NCBI GenBank assembly: GCA_030425485.1
Contig: JAUIAM010000004.1
Span: forward strand, 62,001 to 126,000
Direction: 5' to 3'
Source: Verrucomicrobiia bacterium
GTDB lineage: Bacteria; Verrucomicrobiota; Verrucomicrobiia; Opitutales; Cerasicoccaceae
Length of the DNA: 64,000 bases
The notes beneath the pieces are model-generated. The model saw nothing but the letters and a program-made list of their open reading frames with translations. It was not told the origin of the DNA and did no database searches. Positions 7,948 through 38,553 of this stretch are shown piece by piece; the stretch's first letter is position 1; the number at the start of each line of letters is the position of its first letter. The position numbers and the translations under genes are program-made.

Positions 7948-8064
7948 ACATAATACAACATCTAAAAATCGCTTAGCCATCCGACTATTCCGGCATCAAT
8001 ACCTTGAAGCTCGCTCCTCTTAAGCTCGATTCAACGGAAGAAAAACCCTACCCTTAGTTCGCGC

Positions 8065-8841: not shown

Positions 8842-8852
8842 TTTCACAGCGG

Positions 8853-21715: not shown

Positions 21716-24700
21716 TCAGGGAGTCGTGTGCGCCACGGTAACGTTGTCCACCAGGCCATCGCCAAAGGCGTCACCCCAGGCAAAGGCGATGGTGTCGAAA
21801 TCGTAGACCAAATAACCGCTCTCTACGAACTGGGTGCTCGCAGTGCTGGTGCCATCGGTCGTCGTGTAGGTAATATTCAGGTCGCCGTTGGTGAGGCGCT
21901 CAATCTCAACAGTGATATCATAATCCTCGCCCTGGACCATGGAAAAGCTGCCGGTCGGCGTCAGGTCGGAAAGCAGCCCTCCCGTTACCCCACCGACCCA
22001 GCCGTTGCCGCTGCCCAGCGAGGAAAAAACTGGACCCGCATCATCGGAGCGCCCGTAAGCACGGACGCGCTGGTTAGTGGGGTTGATGAAAAAGCCGTAG
22101 CCGCTCATGGTGAGATTCGGGTTCGTGCTATCAGCGGTTTGTCGCGAATCGCCTGAGCGGAGCAAGCCGACACGCAGCACAGTCAAGCCATCATCTGGCG
22201 TACGCGATGTCGGGGTTACACGGAGTGAAGCGGTCAGCGTTTCTTCAGCTCCAAGCGAAACAGGATGGTCGGCAGGGGTGAAGTACGCGACACCGTGCCG
22301 GATAACTGCGCTGGCCGGAGCATTCTCCAACGAGTAGACCCCCGGCGATGTCTCCACCATATCAAGATTGTTAAAGGACTGATACCACTGCGCGGATACG
22401 GGAAGATTCTGGTTTGTGCGACTGCCGTCGTCAAAGCCGTCATACAGTTTTACCGGCGAGGTGTGCGTGACGACAACGTTGTCGATCAAGCCGTCACCGA
22501 AAGCGTCACCCCAGGCGAAAGCGATGGTATCGAAATCATAAACCAAATAGTCCTCTTCGACAAAGCTGGTGCTCGCGGTGTTGATACCATCGGTCGTCGT
22601 ATAGGTGACTTTCACATCACCATTGGCCAGGTGTTCAATCTCAAGTGTGATCTCGTAGGGCATGCCCTGAACCAGCGCAAAGCCATCCTCCGGGACAGTG
22701 TCGGATATAAGCCCCCCCGTGGTTCCACCAACCCAGCCATTTCCACTACCCAGCGAAGAAAAAATGGGGCCCGCATCTTCAGAGCGTCCGTAAGCACGCA
22801 CCCCCTGGTTTGCAGGATCGACAAAAAGCCCATAGCCGCTCATCGTCAGGTCGGGGTTTGTATTATCCGCTGTTTGGCGCGAACTCCCGGAGTGGAGCAA
22901 GCCTACACGCAGCACAGTCAAGCCCTGATCGGGGGTGCGCGAGGTTGGGGTAAGTTGGAAAGAGGCCGTCAAGGTTTCCCCCACGGCCAGCGAGACAGGC
23001 GATGCGGCGGGCGCAAAGTAGCTGACACCATGTCGAATAACCGCACTGGTGGGGGCATTCTCCAGTGCGTAGGCATCAGGCGAAGTTTCCACAAGGCTGA
23101 GATTGTTAAAGGATTGAAACCACTGCGCAGAATCAGGGAGCTCCTGGTTAGCGCGGTCGTCATCTTCAAAATCATCCTTCAAGAGGATTAACCCCCGACT
23201 CTCATCCAATCGAAGCAGGCTTAAGCGAAAGAAGCACAGGGGGCCGAAGTCCATCGGCACGAGTACCCGCCAGAGATCCCTGCCACTGTCGCTCTCTACA
23301 TAGGCTTCATGTATGCTGGCTGGCCGGTGCCAACCTTCAATTAGGCTGGAAGAAACTTCAACCTGCCAATCAATGTCAGCGACGGAAGGATCGCGCCAGT
23401 ACTCGTAAGCATATGAGCCGCCCAATGTACCCGCAGTCGGCAGCAGGTGCGAATATGTCTCGGAGCGACCGACACCCAGGGCATAGCGTGTCAGGTTAGG
23501 CAATCCACTTGCCATAGCGCCAGCCCCGCTAACGTCAAGGTCCTCCAGCTCGGCTGCGGAGTATTCGCTGTAACGCCAGAAGTCAAAACTCGGCTCAATC
23601 GTAACCATGCGCGATACGGGTGTAGCCGGTGCGTATTGGTCATCTCCACTTTGCGTAGCCAGAAGACTAATCTCCCCAAGCCCGCTGAGCAGCAGCGTCT
23701 GCCATTGCACGGTACCGGGGCCCGAATCCACACTCAGCGATACGGGCAAGCCCGAATCCGAGCCCGCATAGAGCGGAATGCCTTCAGCGGAGAAGCGGAC
23801 GACCGGCCGCGGCGAAAAGGCAATCGCCTGAGACATAAGCACGGCGACCGACGCGCTACTCGAACTCCCTCCACCGTTGGAGGCTGTCACCGAGTAGTCC
23901 CCAGCCATACCCAGACCAAAATCCGCCAGACTCAAGGTGGTACCGTTTTCGCCCGGAATCGGCTCTCCCTCAAAGTACCATTGCAGGTGCGGCTCAGGAA
24001 AACCCTCCACTTCGACTTCGAGCACAACCGCGCCTCCCCCATTCACCTCCTGAGGAGTCGGTGCAGAGACAATCGTCGGTGCAATAGGAGCCAGCGGCTG
24101 GATATGAGAAGCACCGTGAAAAGTCACCTTAATGTTGGTCGTCTTGCTGTTACTTATCTCAAGGCGATAAAGCCTGTCGGCTTCATAGTCGGTGAAGTAG
24201 TACTCATTGTTAAAACGGATAAATCCATTTACCGTGCCCAGGTCGTTGGTGTTGTAGTAGGTCTGTACCCCACCGGTATCCAGCAGAGCCCGGCCCAGGT
24301 TCGTATGGCCTCCTCCATGCCAGGAAAAGAACATCCGGTTGCTGGCCTCGTGGATACCAAGAGCATTCACGTCGTCGCGTCCTGTTAGCAGATTCCCGAG
24401 AAAGTCGCGGCTCACTGCGTCGAATTTGCTAATACGGCCATTACCACTGTCAGCCACATAAATGGTACCATCCGAGCCCGCCACGATGCCCTTGGGCTCA
24501 TTAAGCCCGAAGCCACCCGTGACGAAGAAGCTCACGTCGTTGGTGAGTGTGTCCACGCGGTGCACGCGGTCAGACGTCCCCCATGAGGTAAAAAAGACAT
24601 CATCGCCATAAGCGGTCAGTGCAACGGGCATACCATCGAAATCAACCCCCTCAGTGGCTACCGTCTCCACATAATCCCCCTCCGGCGTGAAGCGCAAAAT

Positions 24701-26089
24701 ACGTCCACCGGCCTTGTTTTCTCCGACGTAAACGTCACCATTCGTCGCCTGGGTAATACCAAAAGGTCGATCCATGGAGAAGTTTGTGAACTGGCCACTG
24801 GGGGCGAGGTTCGCGTTGAGGGTTGTCTCTACCCGGCGGACTTTATCGCTGTCGGTACAGGTAACGAGGACGAATTCCCGCTCAGGATTACGAAAGTTCT
24901 CCAGTTTGTGAAAGGAGAATATGTTGCCATCATGCGCTCGATCCGGCGTGTAACTGCCGTCCCGTAAGGCCGTACGCGCAACAAAGATAAGGTCGTCGCC
25001 GTCAATCGCCGAGCAGTAGTAGTGGAAGCCCTCGACGTCGAGATCAGCCGTGTAGAGTAACATCTTTTCCAGCTCCCAATCCCGCAAGTCGGCCGAGGAG
25101 TACAGCGCTCCGGCATTACGTATCAGGTCCTCGTTTTGGGAAGTGCCGTATCCCCCGTGCTCAGGCAGCACCGGATTCGTCAGAGCCCAGAAGCGCTTTG
25201 ACACATCGTCGTAGAAGACGCAGAACTTTTTGTCTGCGCCCGGCAGGTTAACGAAGTCAGCGGTATTAAAGGTAAGCGTCGTGGCCGCTTCGTTACACTC
25301 GATCAAAGCCGAGTTGGGCATGTCCTCAACATTGGGCATCATGACAACACCCGTCTGAGGAGAGGCCACAACCTGGCTTTCGTGCCAACGCTTAAAGTCA
25401 CCACCGAGCCATGAGCCCGAGCCCGAAGGAGTTGCGTCCAGTTCGTTCGTGGCGGTCCAATCCGCATCGAGCAAATTCGGCACGAGCGGAGCTGAGATCA
25501 GTCGCATGCCGTTGGCAAAGTATATGCGACCATTATAAATATGCGGGATACTGACCGCAGAGTCAAAGCCACCGCTGGGCATCGATACCGGGCTCGACCA
25601 CGTCAGGCCCATATCGGTGGAGCGACGGATCTTGGGGTTGAAGCCACCCATAATGTAGAGATCACCATTGTAGCTGTATAGTATCTGCTTGGATTTATTC
25701 ACCTCCGAGCGCAGCGTCCATGTCTGCCCGCCATCGGTAGAACGATAGATGCGTGTAGTGCGCGGCGACGGCGGATCATCGCCATGCCAGTTGTGACTCG
25801 CAATGTAGCTACCGTCGGGCATGATCGTAATCGATGGATCGGCGATGTAGCGCTCATGCTGGTTGTGCTTGTGGATAATGACGCCGCCCAACTGCTCAGG
25901 GTCAATCGCCCGCGCTGTACTGGCAACCAGGACAGCCATGACAATCGCCAGCGTTAACCAGCAAAAGTGCCCCCCCGACCGGCTCGGGTACGCCCAATAT
26001 CTGCGTCGACAAACTCGGCTGAAAGCAAAACGAAAGGTGGAAAAGATCGCTGGAGTACGGGACTCCGCGAATACGCGTGCCAGGCTCAT
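21716..26089 (-). CDS. large modular exoprotein: sialidase-like propeller, NHL-type propeller, Ig-like and two repeat domains
   Basis: A 1457-residue secreted protein. After a long signal region (cleavage near ARA at about residue 61) comes a sialidase-like propeller (about 65-420) with Asp-boxes RSTDGGQTW and RSTDMGLTW. A second, NHL/Vgb-type propeller follows (about 425-660), then an Ig-like domain (about 665-755), a Verrucomicrobia-type linker with NLTRYALGVG (about 840-860), and two tandem copies of a 240-residue domain (about 967-1211 and 1212-1457). These copies match the PEP-CTERM protein at 117-1001, but this protein has no PEP-CTERM tail. The full set of sialidase catalytic arginines was not established, so the substrate is unknown. 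It may act on or bind a surface glycan. Operator site C lies upstream. Confidence 0.82.
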   Translation of the reverse strand: MSLARVFAESRTPAIFSTFRFAFSRVCRRRYWAYPSRSGGHFCWLTLAIVMAVLVASTARAIDPEQLGGVIIHKHNQHERYIADPSITIMPDGSYIASHNWHGDDPPSPRTTRIYRSTDGGQTWTLRSEVNKSKQILYSYNGDLYIMGGFNPKIRRSTDMGLTWSSPVSMPSGGFDSAVSIPHIYNGRIYFANGMRLISAPLVPNLLDADWTATNELDATPSGSGSWLGGDFKRWHESQVVASPQTGVVMMPNVEDMPNSALIECNEAATTLTFNTADFVNLPGADKKFCVFYDDVSKRFWALTNPVLPEHGGYGTSQNEDLIRNAGALYSSADLRDWELEKMLLYTADLDVEGFHYYCSAIDGDDLIFVARTALRDGSYTPDRAHDGNIFSFHKLENFRNPEREFVLVTCTDSDKVRRVETTLNANLAPSGQFTNFSMDRPFGITQATNGDVYVGENKAGGRILRFTPEGDYVETVATEGVDFDGMPVALTAYGDDVFFTSWGTSDRVHRVDTLTNDVSFFVTGGFGLNEPKGIVAGSDGTIYVADSGNGRISKFDAVSRDFLGNLLTGRDDVNALGIHEASNRMFFSWHGGGHTNLGRALLDTGGVQTYYNTNDLGTVNGFIRFNNEYYFTDYEADRLYRLEISNSKTTNIKVTFHGASHIQPLAPIAPTIVSAPTPQEVNGGGAVVLEVEVEGFPEPHLQWYFEGEPIPGENGTTLSLADFGLGMAGDYSVTASNGGGSSSSASVAVLMSQAIAFSPRPVVRFSAEGIPLYAGSDSGLPVSLSVDSGPGTVQWQTLLLSGLGEISLLATQSGDDQYAPATPVSRMVTIEPSFDFWRYSEYSAAELEDLDVSGAGAMASGLPNLTRYALGVGRSETYSHLLPTAGTLGGSYAYEYWRDPSVADIDWQVEVSSSLIEGWHRPASIHEAYVESDSGRDLWRVLVPMDFGPLCFFRLSLLRLDESRGLILLKDDFEDDDRANQELPDSAQWFQSFNNLSLVETSPDAYALENAPTSAVIRHGVSYFAPAASPVSLAVGETLTASFQLTPTSRTPDQGLTVLRVGLLHSGSSRQTADNTNPDLTMSGYGLFVDPANQGVRAYGRSEDAGPIFSSLGSGNGWVGGTTGGLISDTVPEDGFALVQGMPYEITLEIEHLANGDVKVTYTTTDGINTASTSFVEEDYLVYDFDTIAFAWGDAFGDGLIDNVVVTHTSPVKLYDGFDDGSRTNQNLPVSAQWYQSFNNLDMVETSPGVYSLENAPASAVIRHGVAYFTPADHPVSLGAEETLTASLRVTPTSRTPDDGLTVLRVGLLRSGDSRQTADSTNPNLTMSGYGFFINPTNQRVRAYGRSDDAGPVFSSLGSGNGWVGGVTGGLLSDLTPTGSFSMVQGEDYDITVEIERLTNGDLNITYTTTDGTSTASTQFVESGYLVYDFDTIAFAWGDAFGDGLVDNVTVAHTTP
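21719..23190 (-). repeat. tandem pair of about 735-bp repeat units
   Basis: Two adjacent in-frame units, about 22456-23190 (first in the protein) and 21719-22455 (second), encode copies of the same domain. Shared blocks include SAQWFQSFNN/SAQWYQSFNN, ENAPTSAVIRHGV/ENAPASAVIRHGV, LTMSGYG and FDTIAFAWGDAFGDGL. A third copy lies in the gene at 117-1001. Confidence 0.9.
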
Positions 26090-26479: not shown

Positions 26480-27919
26480 CTACCAGTTAGCCGTTCGCGG
26501 CGGGAGCGGATCAACCGTCCACGCCATGCGATGACAGAGCCGCTCAAAGAGCTCCAGCTTGATTGCCGCAGAGGCGGGATCATCCCACAGGTTGAATGAT
26601 TCATCCGGGTCCGACGCTAGATCGTATAGCTCGCCCTTCCCCAGTGAATGGGCCACGGCCAGCTTGTAGCGCTCGGTGCGTAGCATCGTCGCGTGAGCAG
26701 GTGGGTTCTTGTGTCCGGGCAAAGCATTATAGAACTCGCAGTATACATCGTCACGCCAAGCCACATTCTCCTCTTGGCGAAGCAGCGGCCAGAGCGAACG
26801 TCCCTGCACCCCGAGCTCTGGCACGAGCCCTGCCGCCTCGATCAAGGTCGGCGTCAGATCAACTAACTCGACGAGCGAGTCGCAGGAGTGTGGGCAAAGA
26901 TTACCGCCGGGAAAACTCAGGATGAGCGGCACACGCACTGAGGGCTCGTAGAAGAAGGGGCCCTTGAGATAGGCGCCATGATCCCCGAGCAGTTCACCGT
27001 GGTCGGACATAAAGATGACGATGGTATTCTCCCACTGCCCGGACTGCTTAAGCGCGTCGAGCATGCAACCGACCTGCACATCGATCAGATCACACATCGC
27101 CCAGCTTGCCGCCCGCACAAGACGGTGGTCACGCTCGCTCATCGACTCGAAGTCAAACCCGCTCAGCCCACCATAGGCACCGCGGTGATCAATGTTGAGC
27201 CAATCCGATTTTTCGGCCAACTCACCCTCGCGGTAGTTCGGCAGAGGAATCTCGCCGAGCTTCTCCAGGTAGGGCGCGAGGTACTCCTCGGGAGGATCAA
27301 AGGGGTGATGCGGATCAAACATGTTGACCGAGAACAACCAGGGTTGGCCCGAGCCCTTTTCCTTATCAATAAAATCAATTGCCTTCTGCGCACACCATGT
27401 CGTCTGGTGATGCTCGGCAGGCATCCCCTGCATAACATAGGGGCAGTCTTCGCGAGGCGTGGTGGCGTACGCTACCCCCTTCTCTTCAAGCCAATGGATG
27501 TACTCATTGCCGGACCAATCCGGAGCCGGATGGTGCGACCAGTGAAAGTCGCGGTAGCCATCATCAATACGCGGTTCAGACGCATACATGCGGTAATCGC
27601 AAGCAGAGATGTGGAGCTTACCGGACAAGCCGCAAGCATACCCGGCGTCGGCCAGCACCTTGGTCACGAGCTTTTCATCCGCGGGGATGGACTGGCCGTT
27701 TTGGCGGCAGCGCGTCGTGCGCGGGTAGCGACCCGTCAGGAAGCTCGAACGGCTCGGCGTGCAAACCGGGCTTTGGCAAAAGGCATGTTCGAAGCGCACC
27801 CCCTCCGCAGCCAGGCGGTCGATATTCGGCGTTTTAACGTGAGGATTTCCATAGCAGCCAAGCATATCGAAGCGCTGCTGGTCCGTGCAGATCCAAAGAA
27901 TGTTCGGTGGCGACTTCAT
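26480..27919 (-). CDS. S1-family sulfatase
   Basis: A 479-residue sulfatase with metal site NILWICTDQQR (D13) and formylglycine motif CTPSRSSFLTGRYP (Cys53); SDHGELLGDHG is the second metal segment. No signal peptide is seen, unlike the sulfatase at 10947, so it may act in the cytoplasm or be exported otherwise. It belongs to the branch often annotated as choline-sulfatase or iduronate-sulfatase-like, but the substrate here is probably a sulfated sugar. It is the last gene of a minus-strand set: toroid B, toroid A, GH43, sulfatase, with only a 13-bp gap after the GH43 gene. Confidence 0.9.
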   Translation of the reverse strand: MKSPPNILWICTDQQRFDMLGCYGNPHVKTPNIDRLAAEGVRFEHAFCQSPVCTPSRSSFLTGRYPRTTRCRQNGQSIPADEKLVTKVLADAGYACGLSGKLHISACDYRMYASEPRIDDGYRDFHWSHHPAPDWSGNEYIHWLEEKGVAYATTPREDCPYVMQGMPAEHHQTTWCAQKAIDFIDKEKGSGQPWLFSVNMFDPHHPFDPPEEYLAPYLEKLGEIPLPNYREGELAEKSDWLNIDHRGAYGGLSGFDFESMSERDHRLVRAASWAMCDLIDVQVGCMLDALKQSGQWENTIVIFMSDHGELLGDHGAYLKGPFFYEPSVRVPLILSFPGGNLCPHSCDSLVELVDLTPTLIEAAGLVPELGVQGRSLWPLLRQEENVAWRDDVYCEFYNALPGHKNPPAHATMLRTERYKLAVAHSLGKGELYDLASDPDESFNLWDDPASAAIKLELFERLCHRMAWTVDPLPPRTANW

Positions 27920-27932
27920 GCAAAAAGGTTGC

Positions 27933-28850
27933 TTACTGCTCTATGCGATCTGAACACTGGAGCCCGTCCGCAGTCTCGGCAATGCGGTAAAATACGGCCC
28001 GCTCGTCATAGCGTTGATTGGGTGTGTGGAAGACGAGACGCTTCTCGCCTTCAAAGGTTTCAAAAATCATACCATGACCGCCATCTTCTTTCCAGAGCGG
28101 CTGATCCATCTGCTCCCACGGCCCAAGAATAGTGCCTGTCGTTGAGCGTGCCAGCCCCATCGCGTAGCCTTTATCGCCAAAACTCGACCAGAGCATGAGC
28201 AGGGAGCCGTTGCTGTGCTCATACATCCAGGGCCCATCTGTGACGTAGATCGGAAAGGGGTGCTCGCCGCCTTTATCCGGCCAGGCCTGCTTCTTCTTCC
28301 AAGGCGCTTCGGCCGCATTAAAGAGGTGCTGAGGGCGGCCGACCGCACGCGTCAGATCTTCGGACAACCGGGTCGCCCACATCCCGCCGTTGTACACCTG
28401 CACCCACTCGTGACAGAAGATCATCCAGGGCGCGCCATCCGTATCGACGTAGAGCGTACCGTCGAGGCACTGCCAGTCATCCGGAGTAACAGGCCCCTCG
28501 GAGATGGGCAAGAATGGCCCCTCGGGGGAATCCGCACGGAGTACCTGTGTGCCACGGTAACGTTCGTGCGCCTTGAAGGTGGCCAGCATGTAATAGGCTC
28601 CGCGATACTTAAAAACCTCCGGAGCCCAAAACTGATGTTCTGCCCAGAAACCTTCCGGCGGACGAAAGGCATGCATGGGACCCTCCCAGTTTGTCAGATC
28701 GGTGCTCTTCCAGCAGTTAAAGCCTACCCCGGGTACGAGAACTTTCCCACCCGGCGGGTGGAGGTCTGTCGTGCCGTAGAGGTAGTAGCACTGTTGCTCA
28801 TCATCTCGGTAGACAAAGGGGTCGCGAATGGTAATCTCTCGGGTATGCAT
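27933..28850 (-). CDS. glycoside hydrolase family 43-like enzyme
   Basis: A 305-residue single-domain five-bladed propeller enzyme of the GH43 type. The general base is D10 in IRDPFVY, the pKa-modulating aspartate D130 in CLDGTLYVD, and the acid E148 in FCHEWVQ; WAPEVF (76-81) is also typical. GH43 enzymes remove arabinose, xylose or galactose. There is no signal peptide, so it may act inside the cell on imported oligomers. The start is ATG 28850 (MHTREIT), 14 bp after the upstream stop; a longer frame to 28985 overlaps the previous gene and has a poor N-terminus. Confidence 0.87.
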   Translation of the reverse strand: MHTREITIRDPFVYRDDEQQCYYLYGTTDLHPPGGKVLVPGVGFNCWKSTDLTNWEGPMHAFRPPEGFWAEHQFWAPEVFKYRGAYYMLATFKAHERYRGTQVLRADSPEGPFLPISEGPVTPDDWQCLDGTLYVDTDGAPWMIFCHEWVQVYNGGMWATRLSEDLTRAVGRPQHLFNAAEAPWKKKQAWPDKGGEHPFPIYVTDGPWMYEHSNGSLLMLWSSFGDKGYAMGLARSTTGTILGPWEQMDQPLWKEDGGHGMIFETFEGEKRLVFHTPNQRYDERAVFYRIAETADGLQCSDRIEQ

Positions 28851-28863
28851 GCTCTGCGATAAA

Positions 28864-29877
28864 CTAAATAAAGGGACGGCGATCGAGCACGAGGTGCAGT
28901 GGACGATCCGAGCGTAGATATCCCGGTAGCGCCGCCTGGAGCTCCGCCAGTGCACAGAGCATTCCGAAAAGCGCGTGCAAGTCATCGAAGGGGACAGTCA
29001 TCGTATCGATGCGCTTCATTAGAAAGGCGCACAACTCATGCGTAAATGCTCGCAACACAGACATGACATCACCATGACGGTGCCCACTCTGCCGCAGGGC
29101 CCGCGTCAGGCAATACACCCAGTCGATGTCAGCAAAGCCGACTCCGTTTCCAAGATACGGCCACTGCCCGCTCTCGCGGATGTGCAGGCAGGTATCGATC
29201 ATGGCGACCGGGTACCGTAGCGGTTGCCGCATGTGCTCGTGGTTAAACAGGTAGTGGAAGCTGCCCGCCAGATGCGGAAACAGGGGCACGTCTTGATTAA
29301 CCCCGATGCAGCCTTGTCGCCAGAAGCCCGTCTCCGCATCCTGCTGCTCCCACAGCCAGCGGAAGTAGCGCGCTGTCCACTCCGGCGAGGCCTCATCTGC
29401 CAACACGCGTGCGGCAAATAACCCGGCTCCCTGGTGCGAAGCATCCCACGGATCATTAACCCAGTCAAGTTGATCGAGAAAGGACTCTAAAGCCTGTGGC
29501 TCGTTTAGAAATGAAAGGGCTCGCAATGAATGCAGCGGCCCCGCATCAAAGAGCTGCAAGGCGGCCAGGCAGTGCGCCGTGACGTGATAGCTGTGGTGCG
29601 TTTCTTCGAGGAACAACCCACTGTCTGCATCCTGAAAATCCCGCAGCACTTGCACCCACTGCGTACGCTCATCCGTGTCGGTGGGAAACACCCCCAGCGT
29701 GTAGAGGATATTGGCTGCATCAGCGCAACCGTAGGGATTGAGCACCGTGCCGTCCGCACGCTCGCGCGCCGCCTCTCCCAGCCAACGCTGGTAGCGTCCC
29801 GCCCCGAGCTCGGCCTCCTTTACCGCTTTGAGGGCTGCGTTGAGAATCGGCTGTATATCGACAGGCTCGGGGGTCAT
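28864..29877 (-). CDS. alpha/alpha-toroid protein A, unknown function
   Basis: A 337-residue soluble protein rich in helix-hairpin repeats with the pattern of alpha/alpha-toroid folds (terpenoid cyclase, prenyltransferase, lyase or glycosidase type): YGCADAANILYTLG, HVTAHCLAALQLF, DASHQGAGLFAARVL, FADIDWVYCLTRAL. Many conserved-looking Trp, His and Asp residues suggest an enzyme pocket. I do not recognise a defined family and no signal peptide is present. It is translationally coupled (ATGA, 29874-29877) to toroid B, which has the same general shape. The context (GH43, sulfatase) suggests processing of an imported sulfated oligosaccharide, which is inference. Confidence 0.6.
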   Translation of the reverse strand: MTPEPVDIQPILNAALKAVKEAELGAGRYQRWLGEAARERADGTVLNPYGCADAANILYTLGVFPTDTDERTQWVQVLRDFQDADSGLFLEETHHSYHVTAHCLAALQLFDAGPLHSLRALSFLNEPQALESFLDQLDWVNDPWDASHQGAGLFAARVLADEASPEWTARYFRWLWEQQDAETGFWRQGCIGVNQDVPLFPHLAGSFHYLFNHEHMRQPLRYPVAMIDTCLHIRESGQWPYLGNGVGFADIDWVYCLTRALRQSGHRHGDVMSVLRAFTHELCAFLMKRIDTMTVPFDDLHALFGMLCALAELQAALPGYLRSDRPLHLVLDRRPFI

Positions 29878-30944
29878 CTTGCTGCTTGCAGGTTCGCATC
29901 CTTACGCCACCCATCGGAGTAGGCCAAACATCTCATGCACATAAGCGTACCGAGCATGTCACTGATCGGGTGAGGCTCGTGACAAAGCCGAATGCCGTGG
30001 TGGGCCAGCATAGCATGCTCCCCATGAAAAGCGAAAGCGCCATCGGACTTTAAATAGTCAGCCATCAAGACTGCGACCAGCCACGCGCCCGCGGCGGAGA
30101 TATCGTCCCTCCGGTAACTTCCGCCGAGTTGGATGTCCAACTCGCGCAAGACCCAGACTGCGTCCCAGTTCAGGCACATGTTAGACTCATCGCCGAACTC
30201 GCCACTGCCTTGCTGTAGCGCCAGGGTTGAATCGATGGCCTTTTCGGCATTCGGGTACGGGCGCTTGGCATCAAGGTAGGCAAAAATCAACTTAAACGTA
30301 CCAGCCATCGCCACGGATTGGTTATGGCAGCCCAGCAGCATCGGGTAGCCTGTTTCTGGATCGAGCAGCTCTGACTCGAGCGAACTGAACATGTCCTCAA
30401 GGATGCGCTCGTCTTTCGCGCGTGTCGCCGGAGTCGACGAGCGCAGCAGGGCTCGAATGGCACGCGCCCAGGTTTCACCATAAAGCCACGGGTTTGACCA
30501 GTCATGGGAAAGCGACCACGCACGGGCGTCCACCTCCCTCAAGTCGACAAACTGCGCCTTGGGAACCGGGTATTGTGGCTCTGCCCCGAGGGCATACAAC
30601 GCCTCCAGGGCGGCCCCATTTCGCTGGCCCCAGACCTGATCCCAGTTGTGCGTTCCGGTCAGGTCAGACTCGGTCTCGAGAGGGTCGCGAAAGAGCCCGT
30701 CATCCGGACTTTGGCAACTCTGGAAGTAGGCGACAGCCTCGGCACGCTGCGCCTCAGAGATGGCATCAAGTTCGCCCAGCTCGTTGAGAATGCAGATGGC
30801 CAGGCCAGACGCATTGAGCGCGTACGGCCTGACCAACTGAGCGTGGTACTTCCAGCGCCCCCAACCCTCATCCGGGTAACGCACTGACTCCAGCCAGCCC
30901 AGTATTCCAGAACGGACCTTATCTACGCAGGAAGTTCCCATCAT
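29874..30944 (-). CDS. alpha/alpha-toroid protein B, unknown function
   Basis: A 356-residue soluble protein with helical repeats like those of its neighbour: GWGRWKYHAQLVRPYALNA, DQVWGQRNGAALEALYALG, GSGEFGDESNMCLNWDAVW. The motif WDQVWGQRN and the paired NWDAVWVLREL may line a central cavity. It is the first gene of the coupled toroid pair and overlaps toroid A by four bases. It differs enough from A that the two could form a heterodimer or act in sequence. Substrate and reaction are unknown. A second ATG lies 3 bp inside. Confidence 0.6.
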   Translation of the reverse strand: MMGTSCVDKVRSGILGWLESVRYPDEGWGRWKYHAQLVRPYALNASGLAICILNELGELDAISEAQRAEAVAYFQSCQSPDDGLFRDPLETESDLTGTHNWDQVWGQRNGAALEALYALGAEPQYPVPKAQFVDLREVDARAWSLSHDWSNPWLYGETWARAIRALLRSSTPATRAKDERILEDMFSSLESELLDPETGYPMLLGCHNQSVAMAGTFKLIFAYLDAKRPYPNAEKAIDSTLALQQGSGEFGDESNMCLNWDAVWVLRELDIQLGGSYRRDDISAAGAWLVAVLMADYLKSDGAFAFHGEHAMLAHHGIRLCHEPHPISDMLGTLMCMRCLAYSDGWRKDANLQAAR

Positions 30945-30972: not shown

Positions 30973-31848
30973 TTATGCCTTGCGACGACGAACGTACAGG
31001 GCACAAAGAACGCCACCGAGACCAAGCATCATGGCGCTATTGGAAGCCTCGGGAATCATCCCAGAGTAGGTCACATTGATGTTGTCAAAGCTGGCTTGGT
31101 TTCCGTCTGAGTTGTACAGACCTACCGTGTCAAAGGTCGTCGTGAACTGGCTGTCGGCACTGGTGATCGTACGCTGCCAGCCCAAGTTAGCCAGTGGGTC
31201 GTTAACATCACCGGTAATTTCGATCTTCAGGGTCAGCTCAGACGCGCTGACGAGCGTGTACTGATAGGTAACGGTGTTGACCGTATTGCTGAATAAGGTG
31301 TTCTGCAAGCCACCCGAAAACAGGTTCGTGCCCTGGAAGAACAGATCCGTTTTAACCTCACCGGTGGTAAAGTACTGACGCGAATTACCCACCGTGTTTC
31401 TCGGATTGATGCCAAGGTACATGCCGCTGTCATCCGTACGTAGCCCGACCGTTCCGTCCTGGCCGTCGGCAGTCGTACGGGTCATGTGGGAGTTGGTCAT
31501 ACCAAAGCGGAGGCTATTGGTAACGTTGTTAGCCGATGAGTAGCTGACATCGAAGGTCATGGTCAAGGTCTCGCCAACCTGCATGGTAACGGGCTGGAAG
31601 TAGGCCACTTCGAGGCCGTTGCCCGTGAACACGAGCGAGTTAGTGGCAGCCGAGGAGATGCCGTTTGCGCTCTCGTACCAACCGGACTGCGGGAGGACTT
31701 CGCCCGGGCCTGCGACACGCACGCCGTTGCGCTTTCCGTCGTCGAAGTTATCGTTGAGCAGCACAGTTTGCGCGCTCAAGCTGGCGGTGGTAGCTACGCC
31801 CAGCAGCATAGCAGCCAGGCCCTTACGGATGTTGTTCTTCTTCATCAT
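30973..31848 (-). CDS. PEP-CTERM-type exoprotein
   Basis: A 291-residue secreted protein. It has a signal peptide with cleavage near LSAQT, one beta-rich domain (NDNFDDGKRNG onward; FDTVGLYNSDGNQASFDNINV near the end) and a C-terminal sorting tail IPEAS, hydrophobic helix, RRRKA. It resembles in outline the domain of the PEP-CTERM protein at 117 but is more distant. No enzyme motif is seen. The ATG at 31848 starts a good signal peptide and is preceded by AACCCTAACC rather than a Shine-Dalgarno. Confidence 0.8.
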   Translation of the reverse strand: MMKKNNIRKGLAAMLLGVATTASLSAQTVLLNDNFDDGKRNGVRVAGPGEVLPQSGWYESANGISSAATNSLVFTGNGLEVAYFQPVTMQVGETLTMTFDVSYSSANNVTNSLRFGMTNSHMTRTTADGQDGTVGLRTDDSGMYLGINPRNTVGNSRQYFTTGEVKTDLFFQGTNLFSGGLQNTLFSNTVNTVTYQYTLVSASELTLKIEITGDVNDPLANLGWQRTITSADSQFTTTFDTVGLYNSDGNQASFDNINVTYSGMIPEASNSAMMLGLGGVLCALYVRRRKA

Positions 31849-31930
31849 TGCGGTAGTGTGGGTTAGGGTTAAGCAATTGAATTTCATCATGCGGATTTTT
31901 GAAGAGATTGGGTCGTTAGAGGGATAAAAG

Positions 31931-34357
31931 CTAGTAGGTGTCCTGCAGCTTGAAGGTATCGGGATTCAGGGCGTTTCCCGTCACGGTAAACCCGGCCATG
32001 CCGCCACGGTAAAAGCGCGAAAAGTTCAAGTGCTCCTGGTGATGGCAGCCAATCGTGGGGACGGAGTTGATCGCACGGATCGTAGCCGTCGTCGGGGCCT
32101 GGCCTGCCAGTTTTCCGTCGATATAAATCTCGATACTCTCACCGGTATAGACAGCGGCCACCGCGCTCCATTCGCCGATGGGCAGCTTTGCTTCGGAGAT
32201 CACCTCCGTGCCATTCCTTACCGCAAAGAGCGAACCGTCGAAAATCCCCATATCGAGAGCGCGATTCTGATCGGACAGCAGGTAGGTCATCCCTTCGGTG
32301 CTCTCGGGGCAGACATAGGCCTCGACCGTCATCACATCATGCGGCAAGGAACGGGCAATGACCACGATACGGTCGTTCTCGCCGTCAAAGTCGTAGTACG
32401 AGGCTGCCCCGCCGGGGATGCCCTCCCCCTTTTTGACCGCAGGAACAGCGGTATCGTCAATGCCCCAACGCTTTCCACCGCCCTCGCTGACGATATTCCA
32501 ACCGCCAACATCACGCGGATGCCGGGCCGAATCTTCATCCATAGGCAGAGAGAAACCGTATATCTCCTCACTCGCGACCTCATACTGTACCGGGACCTTC
32601 GCCCCGTGCGTGCCCACGCCCCATGTTTCATCAAAATTTCCTCCACGCGGTACAACCGGGAAGCTCACAAAATCAACGTCGTCCATATGGCGTACTTCCA
32701 CGGGATTTGACCAGGCGTAGCGACCGTCAGCACGGGTGATACGTACGATGTAAACATCGATGGGTTGACGCTGCGGGCGCGGAGCCAGCTCGAAGTCCAC
32801 TACGACGTCATGGCCGCCTTTTTTGGCAATCTCCTGCGTCGCCATGATCTGGCCATTGCAGAGGAGCTCTGCCGTACCGACCCAACTCCAGCTCTTGAAG
32901 CGTGAAGTAAACTTCAAGCTATCGCCGTCCTCCTTGACCGCGAGGGAGGGCGACGGCAGCAGTTCGTTGAGGTCTACACGCAAGGTCTGGTAATCGCGCA
33001 TGATGCCGGGCCGAACGATGAGTGGGTAAAGTTCGCGCCAAGCCTTGTCGTCCGCAGCCGGGGCCTTGCCGTCAGTCGTAATGGCCGCCTCAACGCGATA
33101 GAAGCTCAGCCCATCCAAGCCCGGCGTTTCAAATCGATGATCCACGACCGTGTGGCCATCGGGCTTCAAGTCGACCGCAGGGTAAACCTTCTCGACGTTG
33201 CCGCTGATGTCGAGCAGGCGCACGTAGCACTGCGCGGGCTTCGTTGAGTAAGGAAAACTCTGCACCTCAACAGTCCACCCATCGCCCATGCGAACCTCGG
33301 GCTTGTATGCGACAAAGACCTGTGGCGGTCGCGGGTGAGCGGTCTCACCACGCCAGACACGCGCGTACTCGCGGTTGATTTTCAGCAGCGCGTCGCGCCC
33401 CCAGACAGAGGGCTCAAAGTGCGTATTTTCGATGTAGTCGTTCCACGTCGTCAGGCAAACCCAGTCGGCATCCACGGCCATAGCGGCCTCCCAGTTATCC
33501 CGCAAAGTGCCCGTACCGTGAAAGGGACGATAGTAGGCGTTATGCGTGCCGTTGTAGCCCTGCGTAATTCCCGCGACCAGCACACCGTCTGGACGCCCGG
33601 CCTTGGCCAAAGCCTCACGCCCGTTCTCCAGGCGCAGCGTCATGTCGGCCAGAGATAAACCGTTGCTACCAAAATCATAAAGCCCGTCAAAGACCTTCAG
33701 GGAACGCGCAAATAAGTCCGCATTATCCCAGAGGGTATTTTCTCGCTGCGGCTGCACGACCCAGTAGGCCTCATGCCCGCGAGCCTTGAGCTTGTTCACG
33801 ATCTCCGCGGAGGACTCTGGCGAACGGCTCGTTTTATAGATGAAAATGACCGGCTTACCATCGATATAGAAATTGTTCGGATGATCGCCCCAGTTCTCAA
33901 AATACTCCGTCAGCCGATCGACAATCAAATCGACCGACAAGCTCTCAGGCCACCCATCCACACAAAGTGAAATATAGAACGGCAGCCCTTCGGCAGCAGT
34001 GTAGAGTCGGCCCAGCCCATTCGGATACGCCTCCGTAGGAATAATATCTACGGTAAAGCCATCGACGCCGTACTCCATCGCGCTGAGGATTTGCGGGCGT
34101 GTGGTGCTGGTCAGCCCGGTGTCCGCACTGACCCACTTGCTCTCCGGCAGCAGGGACCTGTCACCGAGTTTCCGGCGCACGTCATTGGTATCATCAAAAT
34201 GCTGGGCGAAGTTAAACCCCCACCCCACATAGTGAGCCCAAACGAGCTTGGGTACATTTCCCTCTTCAGCACGGCCCGGGGTATCCGAGGCAGTTGCCAA
34301 CTGAGTAAACCCCTTCGCTAACACCAATCCGATTAAAACTAGTTTTAAATACTTCAT
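31931..34357 (-). CDS. GH71/GH99-like glycoside hydrolase with LamG domain
   Basis: An 808-residue secreted enzyme. After the signal peptide (about 1-22) comes a TIM-barrel of the GH71/GH99-like type (about 30-345): LVWAHYVGWGF, EYGVDGFTVDI, NFYIDGKPVIFIY and DWVCLTTWNDYIEN, features of endo-alpha-mannanases and alpha-1,3-glucanases. Two beta domains follow, and a C-terminal LamG-like domain (about 630-800). It probably cuts an extracellular polysaccharide. The ATG at 34357 is preferred; a GTG at 34375 would overlap the upstream stop (GTGA) and add six residues. Confidence 0.78.
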   Translation of the reverse strand: MKYLKLVLIGLVLAKGFTQLATASDTPGRAEEGNVPKLVWAHYVGWGFNFAQHFDDTNDVRRKLGDRSLLPESKWVSADTGLTSTTRPQILSAMEYGVDGFTVDIIPTEAYPNGLGRLYTAAEGLPFYISLCVDGWPESLSVDLIVDRLTEYFENWGDHPNNFYIDGKPVIFIYKTSRSPESSAEIVNKLKARGHEAYWVVQPQRENTLWDNADLFARSLKVFDGLYDFGSNGLSLADMTLRLENGREALAKAGRPDGVLVAGITQGYNGTHNAYYRPFHGTGTLRDNWEAAMAVDADWVCLTTWNDYIENTHFEPSVWGRDALLKINREYARVWRGETAHPRPPQVFVAYKPEVRMGDGWTVEVQSFPYSTKPAQCYVRLLDISGNVEKVYPAVDLKPDGHTVVDHRFETPGLDGLSFYRVEAAITTDGKAPAADDKAWRELYPLIVRPGIMRDYQTLRVDLNELLPSPSLAVKEDGDSLKFTSRFKSWSWVGTAELLCNGQIMATQEIAKKGGHDVVVDFELAPRPQRQPIDVYIVRITRADGRYAWSNPVEVRHMDDVDFVSFPVVPRGGNFDETWGVGTHGAKVPVQYEVASEEIYGFSLPMDEDSARHPRDVGGWNIVSEGGGKRWGIDDTAVPAVKKGEGIPGGAASYYDFDGENDRIVVIARSLPHDVMTVEAYVCPESTEGMTYLLSDQNRALDMGIFDGSLFAVRNGTEVISEAKLPIGEWSAVAAVYTGESIEIYIDGKLAGQAPTTATIRAINSVPTIGCHHQEHLNFSRFYRGGMAGFTVTGNALNPDTFKLQDTY

Positions 34358-34371
34358 TACAAAAACGATTC

Positions 34372-35109
34372 TCACTTAGATATGCTCCAGAGGTCTTCCT
34401 TGCCCCTGTCGCGGTACTTAAATTCTCTCAATTCCGTCGTGTCCGAAAACCACTCCACGTGACCATCGGCAAAAACAATGTTCGCAGCCCCATCGGCGTG
34501 CTTGTCCACCTCCGGATGCCCTCCGGATCTGCGGTCACGCACAACACCCGGCAGGATATCAAACTGGATGTTATGAAAGGGGTGCCGCCCTGACTCGGAC
34601 CACGCCGCGCAACCTGCCAAAATCGTACGCGAAGGAAAACTCACGTGCTGCGGACCCGTTGCAGTGGTATTTCTTGCCACCCCGATAAAGGCATTGTTCA
34701 TCCCGTAAGTTGCCGACATCCGCGTCTCACCTGCATCGGGATACATCTCCAGCAAGGCCGGGCAGGTAAAAATGCTCCGTCCACTGCGCGTACCCCCACC
34801 AGGCAAATCCCGATCACTCGGAACATACTCCAGTAATCGCTTGGCCCAGTGCCCCGTCGGCTGCGAACCATCGCTCACATTGTAGTTGGGGTAAGCTCCA
34901 TACTCCTGCGCAAAGAGCTGCAGGCAGGTGTTAATCTGCCGCAGGTTAGTCGCACACTTGGACTGGTTGGCCATCTCGCGCACCCGCCCCAAGGCCACGA
35001 CCACGAGGGCAGACACGATCGCCAGAACCGAAACACAAACCAGTGCTTCTACGAGCGAAAATGCCGTGCGCGCACGACCAGGCTTCAACAAACGGTTAAA
35101 GTAGTTCAT
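34372..35109 (-). CDS. pseudopilin-like protein
   Basis: A 245-residue protein with a prepilin-type N-terminus, TAFSLVEALVC (alanine instead of the usual glycine before the cleavage point, glutamate at +5), a hydrophobic helix and a globular domain. The tail reads HADGAANIVFADGHVEWF, a one-residue-longer variant of the H-X9-DG motif. It is more distant from the two paralogues at 1061 and 12455. It may be coupled to the GH71/99-like gene that follows at once. Confidence 0.8.
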   Translation of the reverse strand: MNYFNRLLKPGRARTAFSLVEALVCVSVLAIVSALVVVALGRVREMANQSKCATNLRQINTCLQLFAQEYGAYPNYNVSDGSQPTGHWAKRLLEYVPSDRDLPGGGTRSGRSIFTCPALLEMYPDAGETRMSATYGMNNAFIGVARNTTATGPQHVSFPSRTILAGCAAWSESGRHPFHNIQFDILPGVVRDRRSGGHPEVDKHADGAANIVFADGHVEWFSDTTELREFKYRDRGKEDLWSISK

Positions 35110-35269
35110 CAGAGGTATGCCGCTGAAAATCATAAAACAAACGCATTGAGTCAATCATTTATTTTACCTAACGAATCACTTATCAAAGAAAAACACCACC
35201 AATCACTCATAAAAACTAGCAACAAAGCCATACAGAGCCCGGCTAAACCCACGACCAACCGATTGATGC

Positions 35270-35320
35270 AAAAATAAATCTGCAATATTGCTTGATTGAT
35301 TCATTCATTTGTGGTTTATC
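35270..35320. promoter_or_regulatory. palindromic region before GntR-type regulator
   Basis: It contains the perfect palindrome GCAATATTGC (35282-35291), followed by TTGATTGATTCATTCATTTG. A similar AATCATTTATTT stretch lies near 35153 before the divergent pseudopilin gene. These AT-rich repeats are candidates for binding by the adjacent regulator. Confidence 0.35.
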
Positions 35321-35332
35321 TGGATAGAAGCA

Positions 35333-36430
35333 ATGAAAGAACCCCGCATAAACCGCAAGGCAGCCTACGAACAGGTCAAGGATGCCGTGTACCAGAAGTA
35401 CATCGGCAAGGACGGCAAGCCAGGCACCAGACTCCCCTCAGATCGCGCACTAGCCGTGGAATTCGATGTGAATGTCGCGACCGTGGCCAAAGGCCTCACC
35501 GCCCTGTCCATGGAAGGCGTTGTCTCGCGGCGCGTTGGCTCCGGCACCTACATCCAGACGACGCGCACACACACACAAACCGTGGGAGTCTACCTCGCTG
35601 CCGCCGTCACCAGCTACGCCATTCCGGAAATGGTGTTCTTCGCCAAGCTGGACCAGCTCGTGCAGCAAACCCTGCACGGTCGTGGCAACGAATTCCAGCA
35701 CTACGCCGACTCCCGTATTCGCGAGTTCTGGGCCACCCCCCACTCTCCGCTCGCGCGCGACATCCAGGAAGGCAAAATCTCGGACCTGATTGTCATTCGC
35801 GCCAACCCCTCCAACTACGCCTGGCTCGAAACCATGGACGTACACACCATTGGGTTCGGGGTTAACCTCGGCGGCTCCGTCGTGGAAATTGACCTCTCCG
35901 CGTTTTCCAGCCAGAGCGTAGAGCACCTGACCAATATCGGCTGCAAGTCCATCGGGCTCATCACCAAGCTGCCGCCAAAATCCAGCACTCGCAGCACTTC
36001 CGGCCAGGCACTCCATGAGGCCTTCTACAACTCGCTCGAGCAAAACGGACTCCCCATCCAGCAAGAGTGGATACGCACGGACGACTTTGACAATACCCTC
36101 TCCGACGCCGAACCCCAGGATTCGGAATTCTTCGGCTACACCTCCTTCCAATCCATCTGGAACTCCAATCGACGACCAGACGGCATTATCGTACACTCAG
36201 ACATCGTCGGGCTTGGCGTTATCCGTGCCGCGCGCGACATGAATGTGGACCTCAACAAGGACATCAAAGCCGTTTTCTCGGTCAACCACGGCAGCGCCTG
36301 GACACCCCATAAGGCTTACACCCGAATGGCCTTCCCCATGACAGACATCGTGCGCGCGCTCCTCAACCAAGTCGGCAACACCGAGAACAAAATCTCCTGG
36401 GTCAAGCCGGTGCTAATCCTTCCCGACTAA
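35333..36430 (+). CDS. GntR-type regulator with sugar-binding-fold effector domain
   Basis: A 365-residue regulator with a GntR winged helix at the N-terminus (RLPSDRALAVEFDVNVATVAKGL then GVVSRRVGSGTYI, about residues 25-75, with the long motif here quoted in parts) and a LacI-like periplasmic-binding effector domain after it. This AraR-like layout is common for sugar-responsive regulators. It is divergent from the pseudopilin and GH71/99-like genes and may control them. ATG 35333 is chosen because it follows GATAGAAG; a TTG/ATG at 35309 would add eight residues. Confidence 0.82.
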   Translation: MKEPRINRKAAYEQVKDAVYQKYIGKDGKPGTRLPSDRALAVEFDVNVATVAKGLTALSMEGVVSRRVGSGTYIQTTRTHTQTVGVYLAAAVTSYAIPEMVFFAKLDQLVQQTLHGRGNEFQHYADSRIREFWATPHSPLARDIQEGKISDLIVIRANPSNYAWLETMDVHTIGFGVNLGGSVVEIDLSAFSSQSVEHLTNIGCKSIGLITKLPPKSSTRSTSGQALHEAFYNSLEQNGLPIQQEWIRTDDFDNTLSDAEPQDSEFFGYTSFQSIWNSNRRPDGIIVHSDIVGLGVIRAARDMNVDLNKDIKAVFSVNHGSAWTPHKAYTRMAFPMTDIVRALLNQVGNTENKISWVKPVLILPD

Positions 36431-36843
36431 GCCGGTTCCGTACAATACCACACCGGACGCAAGAGCCGCTCCTGATTCAAAGGTGCGAAGCGGGCCAAAC
36501 AGGACTGGCGCCACATCCACATCGCGTCCGCTTGCCTAAGCTGCCCGGAACGGGGCGATCATATGCTTTAGGCGGCGTATGCAAACCTCCTCAAAGTCGC
36601 ATACTCAGCCGAGGTGCAAAATCAACTTGTCCGCGCCACGGGATGCCTTTATAGCATTTCTTGTCGTATAACTCACGGCAACAACACCCGATGAAGCTGC
36701 ACGCGCGATCTCGCGCTGCGCTCCTCAGACCCGGCATCGCTGCGGCCCGTACACATGATGGCTATCCTGTGCTGAGTGAAATCAGCCTGAGCCACACCTC
36801 CTATGGGCAGCACATGCCCCCCCCCTGTGCCAACCATCCCCAT
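36431..36843. other. intergenic region, no feature recognised
   Basis: A 413-bp gap between the GntR-type regulator and dld. An open frame continues upstream of dld here, but its translation is low-complexity and unlike any D-lactate dehydrogenase. No terminator, RNA gene or repeat was seen. Confidence 0.5.
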
Positions 36844-38553
36844 ATGAACACATCCAGCTTGATTCACCGATTTGAAGCAATCGTCGGCCAGCGCAACGTC
36901 CTGACCAAGGACCGCAAGACCGCCTACTACCGCTCGGGCTTTCGCTCGGGCTTCGGAGGCGCGGTGGCAGTGGTCTTCCCCACGAGCCTGCTGGAACAGT
37001 GGAAAGTACTTCAGGCCAGCGTAGAGGCCAACTGCGCCATCATCATGCAGGCGACCAAAACCGGGCTAACCGAGGGCTCGTGCCCGAGCGGTTTCGACTA
37101 CGACCGCCCGGTCGTCATCATCAATGTGACACGCCTGAAGGGACTGATCCTCCTGGATGGCGGCAAGCAGGTCATCGCCTTTCCCGGCACCACCCTACAC
37201 GAGTTGGAACTGGAGCTTAAAAAGATCAACCGCGCCCCACACGCCGTTATCGGCTCCACCACGATCGGAGCCACCGTCATCGGCAGTGTGGCCAACAATG
37301 CCGGTGGCGCCCTGTGCAAGCGCGGCTCGTCCTACACGGAGCTGTCGCTCTTTGCCCAGGTGGACAAGGCCGGAAAACTCAATCTGGTCGACCACCTCGG
37401 CATCAAGAACTTGGGAGACACGCCGGAAGACATCTTTGCCAGCCTGGCCGCGGGTACAATTCGCACCGAAGACCTTGAGGATATGGACAAGCTCGCCTCG
37501 GATCGCGAGTACCAGCACCGTATCAGAAATCTCGATACAGACGTCCCCAATCGCTACAACGCCGACCCCAAGCGCCTGCACGACGTCAGCGGCAGCGCGG
37601 GCAAAGTGGCCGCCTTTGCCGTCCGCGTAGACACCTACCCCATCCCGGAGCGCAAGCAGGTCTTCATTCTCGGCACCAACGACCCGACCGACTTTACCAA
37701 GCTGCGCCAGCATATCTTGACCCAATTCAAGGAGCTACCGGACATGTGCGAGTACATGAACCGAGAGATTTTCAATACCGCCGAAAAGTACGGCAAAGAC
37801 GTCTTCCTCTCGATCAAGCACCTGGGCACGGAACGCCTCCCCCGGGCATATGCGCTCAAATCCAGCGTCGAGTACTTGCTGAACAAAGTGCCCTTCCTGC
37901 CCAAGTTTCTGCCTGACCTCTTCCTCTACTACGTCAGCCAGCTCTTTCCCCAGCACCTGCCCAAGCGCCTATTGGAATACCGGGACAAGTTCCAGTACTA
38001 CCTCATCCTCGTCATGAGCGATGAGGGCATCGACGAGGCGGAAACGTACCTCCGGGAAACGTGGAGCAAGCACGAGGGCACAGACTACTTTAGGTGCAAC
38101 CAGAAGGAGCAAGAGGCGGCGCTGCTTCACCGCTTTGCCGCTGCGGGGGCAGCCATCCGCTACCAAAACCTCCACCAGAAAACGACTGAAGAGGTACTTG
38201 CGCTCGACATTGCGCTCCTGGGCAACGACCTCGAATGGGTGGAAGAGCTGCCGCCCGAAATAACGGAACACCTTGAGCTGGCCTTGTACTACGGCCACTT
38301 CATGTGCCACGTCTTCCACCAGGACTATATCTTTAAAAAGGGCACCGACCTGAAAGCCATCAAAGCCAAGATGCTGAAACGGCTCGATGAAAAGCGGGCC
38401 AAGTACCCCGCCGAGCACAACGTCGGCCACCTGTACGAAGCCGACGAAACCCTGAAGCAATTCTACGCCGTGCTCGACCCGACCAACACCTTCAACCCCG
38501 GCATTGGTAAGACGAGCAAGGCACGGATTGCTCCAGTATCCCCGGAGGCCTGA
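36844..38553 (+). CDS. dld: quinone-dependent D-lactate dehydrogenase
   Basis: A 569-residue FAD enzyme, close in length to E. coli Dld (571). It oxidises D-lactate to pyruvate and reduces quinone at the inner face of the membrane. The FAD-binding domain includes IIMQATKTGLTEGSCP, GSTTIGATVIGSVANNAGG and KRGSSYTELSLFA; the lactate-binding and membrane-association regions follow, ending with HNVGHLYEA and DPTNTFNPGIGK. The ATG at 36844 matches the usual N-terminus (MNTSSLIHRFEAIVG). It stands apart from the other genes and ends 37 bp before a convergent gene. Confidence 0.93.
   Translation: MNTSSLIHRFEAIVGQRNVLTKDRKTAYYRSGFRSGFGGAVAVVFPTSLLEQWKVLQASVEANCAIIMQATKTGLTEGSCPSGFDYDRPVVIINVTRLKGLILLDGGKQVIAFPGTTLHELELELKKINRAPHAVIGSTTIGATVIGSVANNAGGALCKRGSSYTELSLFAQVDKAGKLNLVDHLGIKNLGDTPEDIFASLAAGTIRTEDLEDMDKLASDREYQHRIRNLDTDVPNRYNADPKRLHDVSGSAGKVAAFAVRVDTYPIPERKQVFILGTNDPTDFTKLRQHILTQFKELPDMCEYMNREIFNTAEKYGKDVFLSIKHLGTERLPRAYALKSSVEYLLNKVPFLPKFLPDLFLYYVSQLFPQHLPKRLLEYRDKFQYYLILVMSDEGIDEAETYLRETWSKHEGTDYFRCNQKEQEAALLHRFAAAGAAIRYQNLHQKTTEEVLALDIALLGNDLEWVEELPPEITEHLELALYYGHFMCHVFHQDYIFKKGTDLKAIKAKMLKRLDEKRAKYPAEHNVGHLYEADETLKQFYAVLDPTNTFNPGIGKTSKARIAPVSPEA

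Follow-up and report, generated by a model that had tools for sequence, protein, structure and literature searches.

Proteins A and B are the products of two adjoining genes in a 64,000-nucleotide stretch of DNA from a Verrucomicrobiia bacterium (Opitutales; Cerasicoccaceae), which comprises positions 62,001-126,000 of the forward strand of contig JAUIAM010000004.1 in assembly GCA_030425485.1 and is referred to here as the window. We propose that they are separate members of one family of alpha/alpha toroid proteins that has been drawn into glycan metabolism, and that each of them is most likely an enzyme; taken whole, we consider this account about evenly balanced between right and wrong. Its most secure part, which we hold to be very probable, is that A and B diverged long ago as paralogues within a single uncharacterised family that has the toroid fold and is new at the level of the libraries used. 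Both are open reading frames on the reverse strand with ATG starts and without signal-peptide-like starts: A (356 residues) spans 29874..30944 and B (337 residues), which falls into another clade of the family, spans 28864..29877, the stop of A overlapping the start of B by the four bases ATGA (29874..29877, reverse strand). A preliminary description had read them as a tightly coupled pair of soluble toroid proteins followed by GH43 and sulfatase genes, and had suggested a two-subunit or two-step enzyme; the arrangement of the genes was borne out at every point, and it is over the coupling that our account departs from it.

We treat A and B as one family because BLASTP aligns 265 residues of them at 28% identity (E 7e-4, calculated for this one comparison) and because iterated profiles seeded by A alone or by B alone reach the same members among the loci fetched. 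The only Pfam model that matched is the prenyltransferase toroid PF00432 (A, E 3e-4 and 20.7 bits; B, E 0.054 and 13.4 bits), with a cut-off of 26.5 bits that neither protein reaches; NCBIfam and PHROGs gave no match for either. The GH88, GH105, GH76, GH37 and lyase families matched neither protein in Pfam or NCBIfam up to E 1, membership of CAZy toroid families being judged on these profiles rather than on CAZy's own models. Neither A nor B, in short, passes a curated cut-off for a known family. Against solved structures, the pooled profile A3 matched the Rab geranylgeranyltransferase (RabGGTase) beta subunit (E 8.9e-7), in a match that runs mainly through single helical repeats and is not collinear, as well as squalene-hopene cyclase (6.3e-4), and the pooled profile A5 again matched RabGGTase beta (2.2e-4). 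Single-sequence searches of solved structures with A or B returned chance matches and were discarded, as were the matches of B-clade-only profiles to a designed coiled-coil protein and (profile A4) to glycogen synthase. No such family is recognisable by title or by the start of the abstract among the entries listed from an open-access literature subset, and in the main texts of PMC8857213 and PMC11980603 the words "toroid" and "prenyltransferase" occur zero times.

The toroid fold, which the preliminary description had claimed from the sequence, is well supported as a prediction for both proteins. AlphaFold2, given input alignments of 29 rows for A and 26 for B, returned models with a predicted local distance difference test score (pLDDT) of 93.7 and 93.4, respectively, in which each protein forms a single alpha/alpha toroid of inner and outer helix pairs. 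The best structural match of the A model is the geranylgeranyltransferase (GGTase) beta subunit 6j74_B (Z 19.0, 3.5 Å over 266 residues) and that of the B model is the farnesyltransferase (FTase) beta subunit 28jn_B (Z 20.2, 4.0 Å over 288 residues), with sequence identities of 13-14% over these matches. The aligner shows 50 entries per model, beyond which further families may lie; for A all 50 are prenyltransferases, and for B squalene-hopene cyclase and invertases follow lower in the list at about Z 15. Foldseek, which had been suggested as a comparison with CAZy toroids, gave for A 31 matches at E <=0.001, headed by squalene-hopene cyclase (4.9e-5), and its list includes GH88 (4q88, 2.5e-4), GH37 (5z6h, 3.0e-4), GH76 (4d4a, 3.7e-4), GH105 (4ce7, 2.6e-3) and one polysaccharide lyase. 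On the models, the profile matches and the family tree, kinship of the A/B family with the prenyltransferase/cyclase superfamily is likely.

The family is present in 30 of 387 genomes of the phylum (pooled profile, E <=1e-6, with the five best candidates per genome scored), and within it A and B belong to well-separated lineages. The maximum-likelihood tree places 5 rows in clade A (support 100/99) and 16 in clade B (100/98), its deepest forks being weak. Strong clade A matches come from the window's own genome (two copies) and from genomes G431 and G445, and a contig scan of genomes added one relative, a clade A protein on a 7.8 kb Phycisphaera contig (L003) that is uninformative on the rest of its genome; clade B rows come from 13 other genomes. 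Clade A was seen in none of those 13, and clade B in neither of the two other whole genomes with clade A (G431 and G445). No genome listed among the 197 around G109 (searched with the B profile) or the 197 around G445 (searched with the A profile) has strong matches to both, the two sets apparently representing one class and most of their match-free genomes having no individual entry. The two clades thus meet only here among the genomes searched, for which reason we regard the A-B junction as having most likely arisen where two old lineages met locally. The preliminary description had proposed to check co-occurrence across the Verrucomicrobiota and had named its absence elsewhere as a refutation; that refutation applies to the pair and leaves the family as such untouched.

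That A and B form an obligate two-subunit enzyme, as a heterodimer or as two successive steps held together, is for the same reason very unlikely. One operon, the ATGA overlap and the shared predicted fold speak for such a partnership, and the separate distribution of the two clades speaks against it, as does the second A copy of the same genome, which is 71-72% identical to A and has no B beside it. Overlaps of equal length also occur with several other genes. Eight of 39 members overlap a neighbour by four bases, namely A and B mutually and six more whose partners encode a DUF4838 protein (L053), a GntR regulator (L050), a GH67N-like protein (L065), a BNR/LamG protein (L103), a pseudopilin-like protein (L067) and a hexapeptide transferase (L071), the overlap lengths in fetched loci being approximate because gene starts there are automatic. 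Since similar overlaps occur with several unrelated partners, that between A and B is best read as ordinary tight operon packing. A further four-base overlap, between a toroid gene and the gene for a Wzt-type ABC transporter ATPase (L131:1444-3986), points to a surface-glycan export cluster.

The second A copy lies on another contig of the same genome (G000:C12), where the stretch L007:7984-12596 carries a LamG protein, a pseudopilin (49% identical to that of the window), the A copy (71%) and a GntR regulator (38%; 7984-9081), and where no B, GH43 or sulfatase gene was seen. Adjacent family members occur in two of the 30 genomes, here and in the congener G001, in which a tandem pair of secreted-type toroid proteins (L068:8214-11094), 53% alike, is of independent and more recent origin. 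We reject the idea that A and B themselves arose by a recent tandem duplication, because they share 28% identity over 265 residues, as against 53% for the G001 tandem pair.

It has also to be asked whether A and B do anything for their host. They might be paralogous hitchhikers, left behind by mobile glycan clusters and doing little in this bacterium, and the congeners lend this some colour: clade A has no match in G001-G003 (G003 holding only a distant secreted-type member), B has no match in G001 and G003, and G172 has a broken B-type copy (G172:C73:10606-11110, in L075), its pieces interrupted by internal stops. We consider this explanation quite unlikely in view of the two intact reading frames with conserved cores; near-full-length homologues of each protein were found in other genomes, hence both are real genes as judged by their sequences. 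The guanine-plus-cytosine content of A and B (0.59-0.60, against 0.576 for the whole window) is uninformative on their origin.

Gene context and gene fusions make it probable that a large part of the family has come to serve glycan metabolism. We compared family neighbours (41 proteins of at least 120 residues on the same strand, with gaps of -100 to 150 bases, of which 40 were scanned, the PEP-CTERM-like protein of the window being the neighbour without a scan) with a control of 41 proteins, 40 of them scanned, which were drawn from the 71 genes lying over 6 kb away in the same loci. A glycan-related Pfam match occurs in 16 of the 40 adjacent genes, as counted from single scans plus a batch scan, and in at least 5 of the 40 distal genes (Fisher p 0.010, an optimistic value because the distal count is a lower bound); leaving out the two glycosyltransferases (GTs) gives 14 of 40 and p 0.034. 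The adjacent matches are GH95, GH9, DUF4838 (two), a CBM9/GH10-like protein, GH42 (two), NAGidase, a GH67N-like protein, GT1, GT2, GH20 (two), GH71/99, BNR/LamG and GH2, of which DUF4838 and the GTs were counted as glycan-related by choice; the GH43 protein of the window stands outside the neighbour set, its automatic gene start having overlapped B by 122 bases. The family is mostly stand-alone, some members having signal-peptide-like starts, and the fusions that do occur are with sugar enzymes. In L004:682-2496 (G038) a SASA-type carbohydrate esterase is joined to a family toroid in which the central Asp is replaced by Asn, and a hexapeptide acyltransferase carries a C-terminal family toroid in L132:1378-3084 and L135:745-2478 (G057 and G376) and, as read by eye, in L140:2141-3823 (G107); in the hexapeptide-fused toroids the central motif reads CxxxD.

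The start of inner helix 5 reads [C/F]x[D/N/E]xD in many members: in A it is C257-L-N259-W-D261 (30162..30176, reverse strand; helix 256-272 in the model) and in B D250-I-D252 (29122..29130, reverse strand; helix 249-264), with B D252 aligned to A D261. Among 46 members compared, 34 have Asp at this central position, and 40 have a basic residue (His, Lys or Arg) at the position on inner helix 4 that is H208 in B and K218 in A. The 46 comprise 39 members plus seven added, a part of the family that leaves aside G191, G238 (two pieces), G167, G296 and the broken G172 copy; L062, missed by automatic gene choice in the 30-row alignment, is included in the 39-row set. In B and seven relatives His 94, 98, 102, 148, 208 and 301 and D252 are invariant (8 of 8 rows), H301 lying at inner helix 6 in an HxLFG stretch. 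In clade A the residues H99, E157, K218, C257, N259, W260, D261, H315, R319, D329 and C336 are invariant (5 of 5 rows). Such a centre suggests a putative metal or acid/base site.

The same residues bear on a third alternative, that A and B are true isoprenoid enzymes, akin in chemistry to protein prenyltransferases or terpene cyclases, which stand in glycan loci by chance or take, for example, a lipid carrier as substrate. The nearest folds are indeed FTase and GGTase beta, the pooled profile matches RabGGTase beta and squalene-hopene cyclase, and some members adjoin glycosyltransferases and Wzt, where lipid-linked sugars occur. Yet the cyclase motif DxDD is not conserved, being found in two of 39 members and in neither A nor B, and no Asp-x-Cys is conserved at inner helix 5, where B has D-x-D. 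C240 and H290 of RabGGTase beta, which we take to be zinc ligands, would by helix order fall near B D252 and H301. The zinc-ligand positions of helices 5 and 6 (presumably Asp-x-Cys and His) would correspond to D250-x-D252 and H301 in B and to C257-x-N259-x-D261 and D329 in A. We weighed a DTC triplet in B (228-230) as a counterpart of the prenyltransferase Asp-x-Cys but set it aside, since the helix that carries it (223-235) falls between inner helices 4 and 5. Signal-peptide-like starts occur in some members, no isoprenoid family occurs among the neighbour families listed (those of the single scans and 25 of 55 in the batch scan), and the prenyltransferase alpha-subunit model PPTA (PF01239) has no match in the window's own genome, a weak negative given that this model is insensitive in prokaryotes and passes its cut-off in none of 14 control genomes. 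An isoprenoid role is, on balance, highly improbable.

A and B lie in a sugar-degradation cluster of marine type. On the reverse strand its genes form a run in the order pseudopilin-like protein, GH71/99-like protein with LamG, PEP-CTERM-like protein, A, B, GH43 protein, sulfatase and large NHL/Ig repeat protein. The pseudopilin-like gene (34372..35154; PF07596/DUF1559) overlaps by four bases the gene for the GH71/GH99-like protein with a C-terminal LamG domain (31931..34375; PF03659, E 4.4e-13, the GH99 match being below the cut-off), whose homologue in L101 (7268-9661; 33% identity over 840 residues) adjoins a B-clade gene. The PEP-CTERM-like protein (30973..31890), so labelled by eye in the absence of a Pfam match, ends 28 nucleotides upstream of A. 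Downstream of B, the GH43 family gene (27933..28850 from its likely start, a Met at 28850; PF04616, E 5.9e-37) begins 13 nucleotides past the end of B and is followed by the sulfatase (26480..27919; PF00884, E 1.8e-42), the translation of which contains CTPSR, presumably a formylglycine-type motif. The run ends with a protein of 1457 residues (21716..26089) that has NHL and Ig domains, sub-threshold BNR repeats and a hydrophobic start. In the opposite orientation stands a divergent GntR regulator with a periplasmic-binding-protein-like domain (35309..36430, forward strand; PF00392, PF13377), the paralogue of that beside the second A copy. A membrane-type D-lactate dehydrogenase gene (36661-38553; PF09330) adjoins this regulator.

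By the most hydrophobic 12-residue stretch within the first 60 residues, the GH71/99-like protein (2.34) and the large BNR-type repeat protein (2.93) have hydrophobic starts, and the PEP-CTERM-like protein has a weaker one (1.91 at residue 25). A (1.97 at residue 42) and B (1.14 at residue 8) lack one, as do the GH43 protein and the sulfatase, neither of which has a signal-peptide-like start. This layout suggests that A, B, the GH43 protein and the sulfatase work in the cytosol and that some other products of the locus are exported. It agrees with the earlier characterisation of the two proteins as soluble, and the label of a sulfated-glycan locus appears reasonable from the GH43, sulfatase, GH71/99-like and large secreted repeat proteins encoded there.

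The mechanism that we favour follows from this setting. The family would have been built on a protein-prenyltransferase-beta/terpene-cyclase scaffold, and A and B, in the cytosol with the GH43 protein and the sulfatase, would act on imported and partly desulfated oligosaccharides, each as an enzyme in its own right and separately from the other. The sugar would be bound in the central cavity of the toroid, where residues from the inner-helix tops could act on it: the Asp that closes the helix 5 motif [C/F]x[D/N/E]xD, a basic residue (His or Lys) of inner helix 4 and, for B, a ring of further His that might hold a metal. A and B would be neighbours because each joined the gene cluster, not because they form an obligate pair.

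Several results weigh against this account. Foldseek found no match for B at E <=0.001, the best being farnesyltransferase at 5.1e-3, and for both models the template-modelling scores (TM-scores) of the top rows are about 0.3-0.5; B-clade-only profiles matched no toroid of known structure. The lower bound on the distal control count stems from a scan in which 25 of 44 families were listed. B2 members with scanned neighbours (L059, L060 and L061) adjoin genes for a protein kinase, an ABC transporter, a SurA-like protein and an AIG2-like protein, not glycan genes, and some members stand in glycan-building clusters (GT1/GT2, Wzt), which is easier to reconcile with the handling of glycans than with a single degradative reaction common to the family. 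The central Asp, finally, is replaced in two clades, by Pro in five B2 rows and by Asn in seven secreted-type/SASA rows.

This last replacement also counts in favour of a non-catalytic explanation, under which the toroid would bind a sugar and act on behalf of a coupled or fused partner as its scaffold, chaperone or regulator. Such a sensing or binding role would accommodate the fusions to both an esterase and an acyltransferase, sugar enzymes of opposite chemistry, and neighbours as diverse as GH20, GH95, DUF4838, GH67N-like, BNR/LamG and pseudopilin proteins, a GntR regulator, a hexapeptide transferase and Wzt. We nevertheless judge it rather unlikely, because polar residues at the inner-helix tops are conserved clade by clade to a degree beyond the apparent needs of the fold or of loose binding. 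Enzymatic action, by comparison, seems to us the likelier of the two on the evidence of these sequences, at around an even chance. More tentatively, in a form that we rate below an even chance, the family may be a new carbohydrate-active enzyme family evolved from a prenyltransferase/cyclase toroid; catalysis would rely on an Asp and a basic residue of the central cavity, possibly with a metal in the B clade, and the family would serve degradation as well as, through the acyltransferase fusion, glycan modification or building. The preliminary description had likewise raised a new carbohydrate-active family, on the strength of the tight coupling; a carbohydrate-related family is plausible on the enrichment of glycan neighbours and the failure to reach any curated cut-off, and the coupling drops out of the argument.

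Complex-glycan degradation in this phylum uses many genes that no family model names, and the family described here is a concrete candidate among them: small proteins, mostly without export signals, with a fold of the isoprenoid-enzyme type, encoded next to glycan enzymes of at least eight kinds. As true enzymes they would form a new class that may fill missing steps in sulfated-glycan breakdown, and as binding modules they would represent a new kind of intracellular glycan-binding domain. In either case the picture of A and B as a coupled pair is to be corrected.

Among known systems, protein prenyltransferase beta subunits are similar-sized single-domain alpha/alpha toroids, the best fold match of both models (Z 19-20), and share with the family repeated QxxxDGxF-like turns as well as the pooled-profile match to RabGGTase beta; they differ in that the family has Asp where the zinc-binding Cys would be and glycan rather than isoprenoid neighbours. 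Squalene-hopene and other class II terpene cyclases (PF13243, PF00432) resemble the family in their alpha/alpha toroid, in QW-like turns, in a weak profile match and, for A, in the top Foldseek row. In contrast to these cyclases, the family has one toroid domain, no conserved DxDD and, in A and B, scores below the PF00432 cut-off; the window's genome encodes a separate squalene-hopene cyclase. The (alpha/alpha)6 glycosidases of families GH88/GH105, GH76 and GH37 are unlike A and B in that neither protein matches them in Pfam and that none stands among the 50 second-aligner entries shown for A; they are alike in having a similar barrel, listed by Foldseek for A. Glycosidases of these types process imported oligosaccharides, and the role that we propose for A and B would be analogous.

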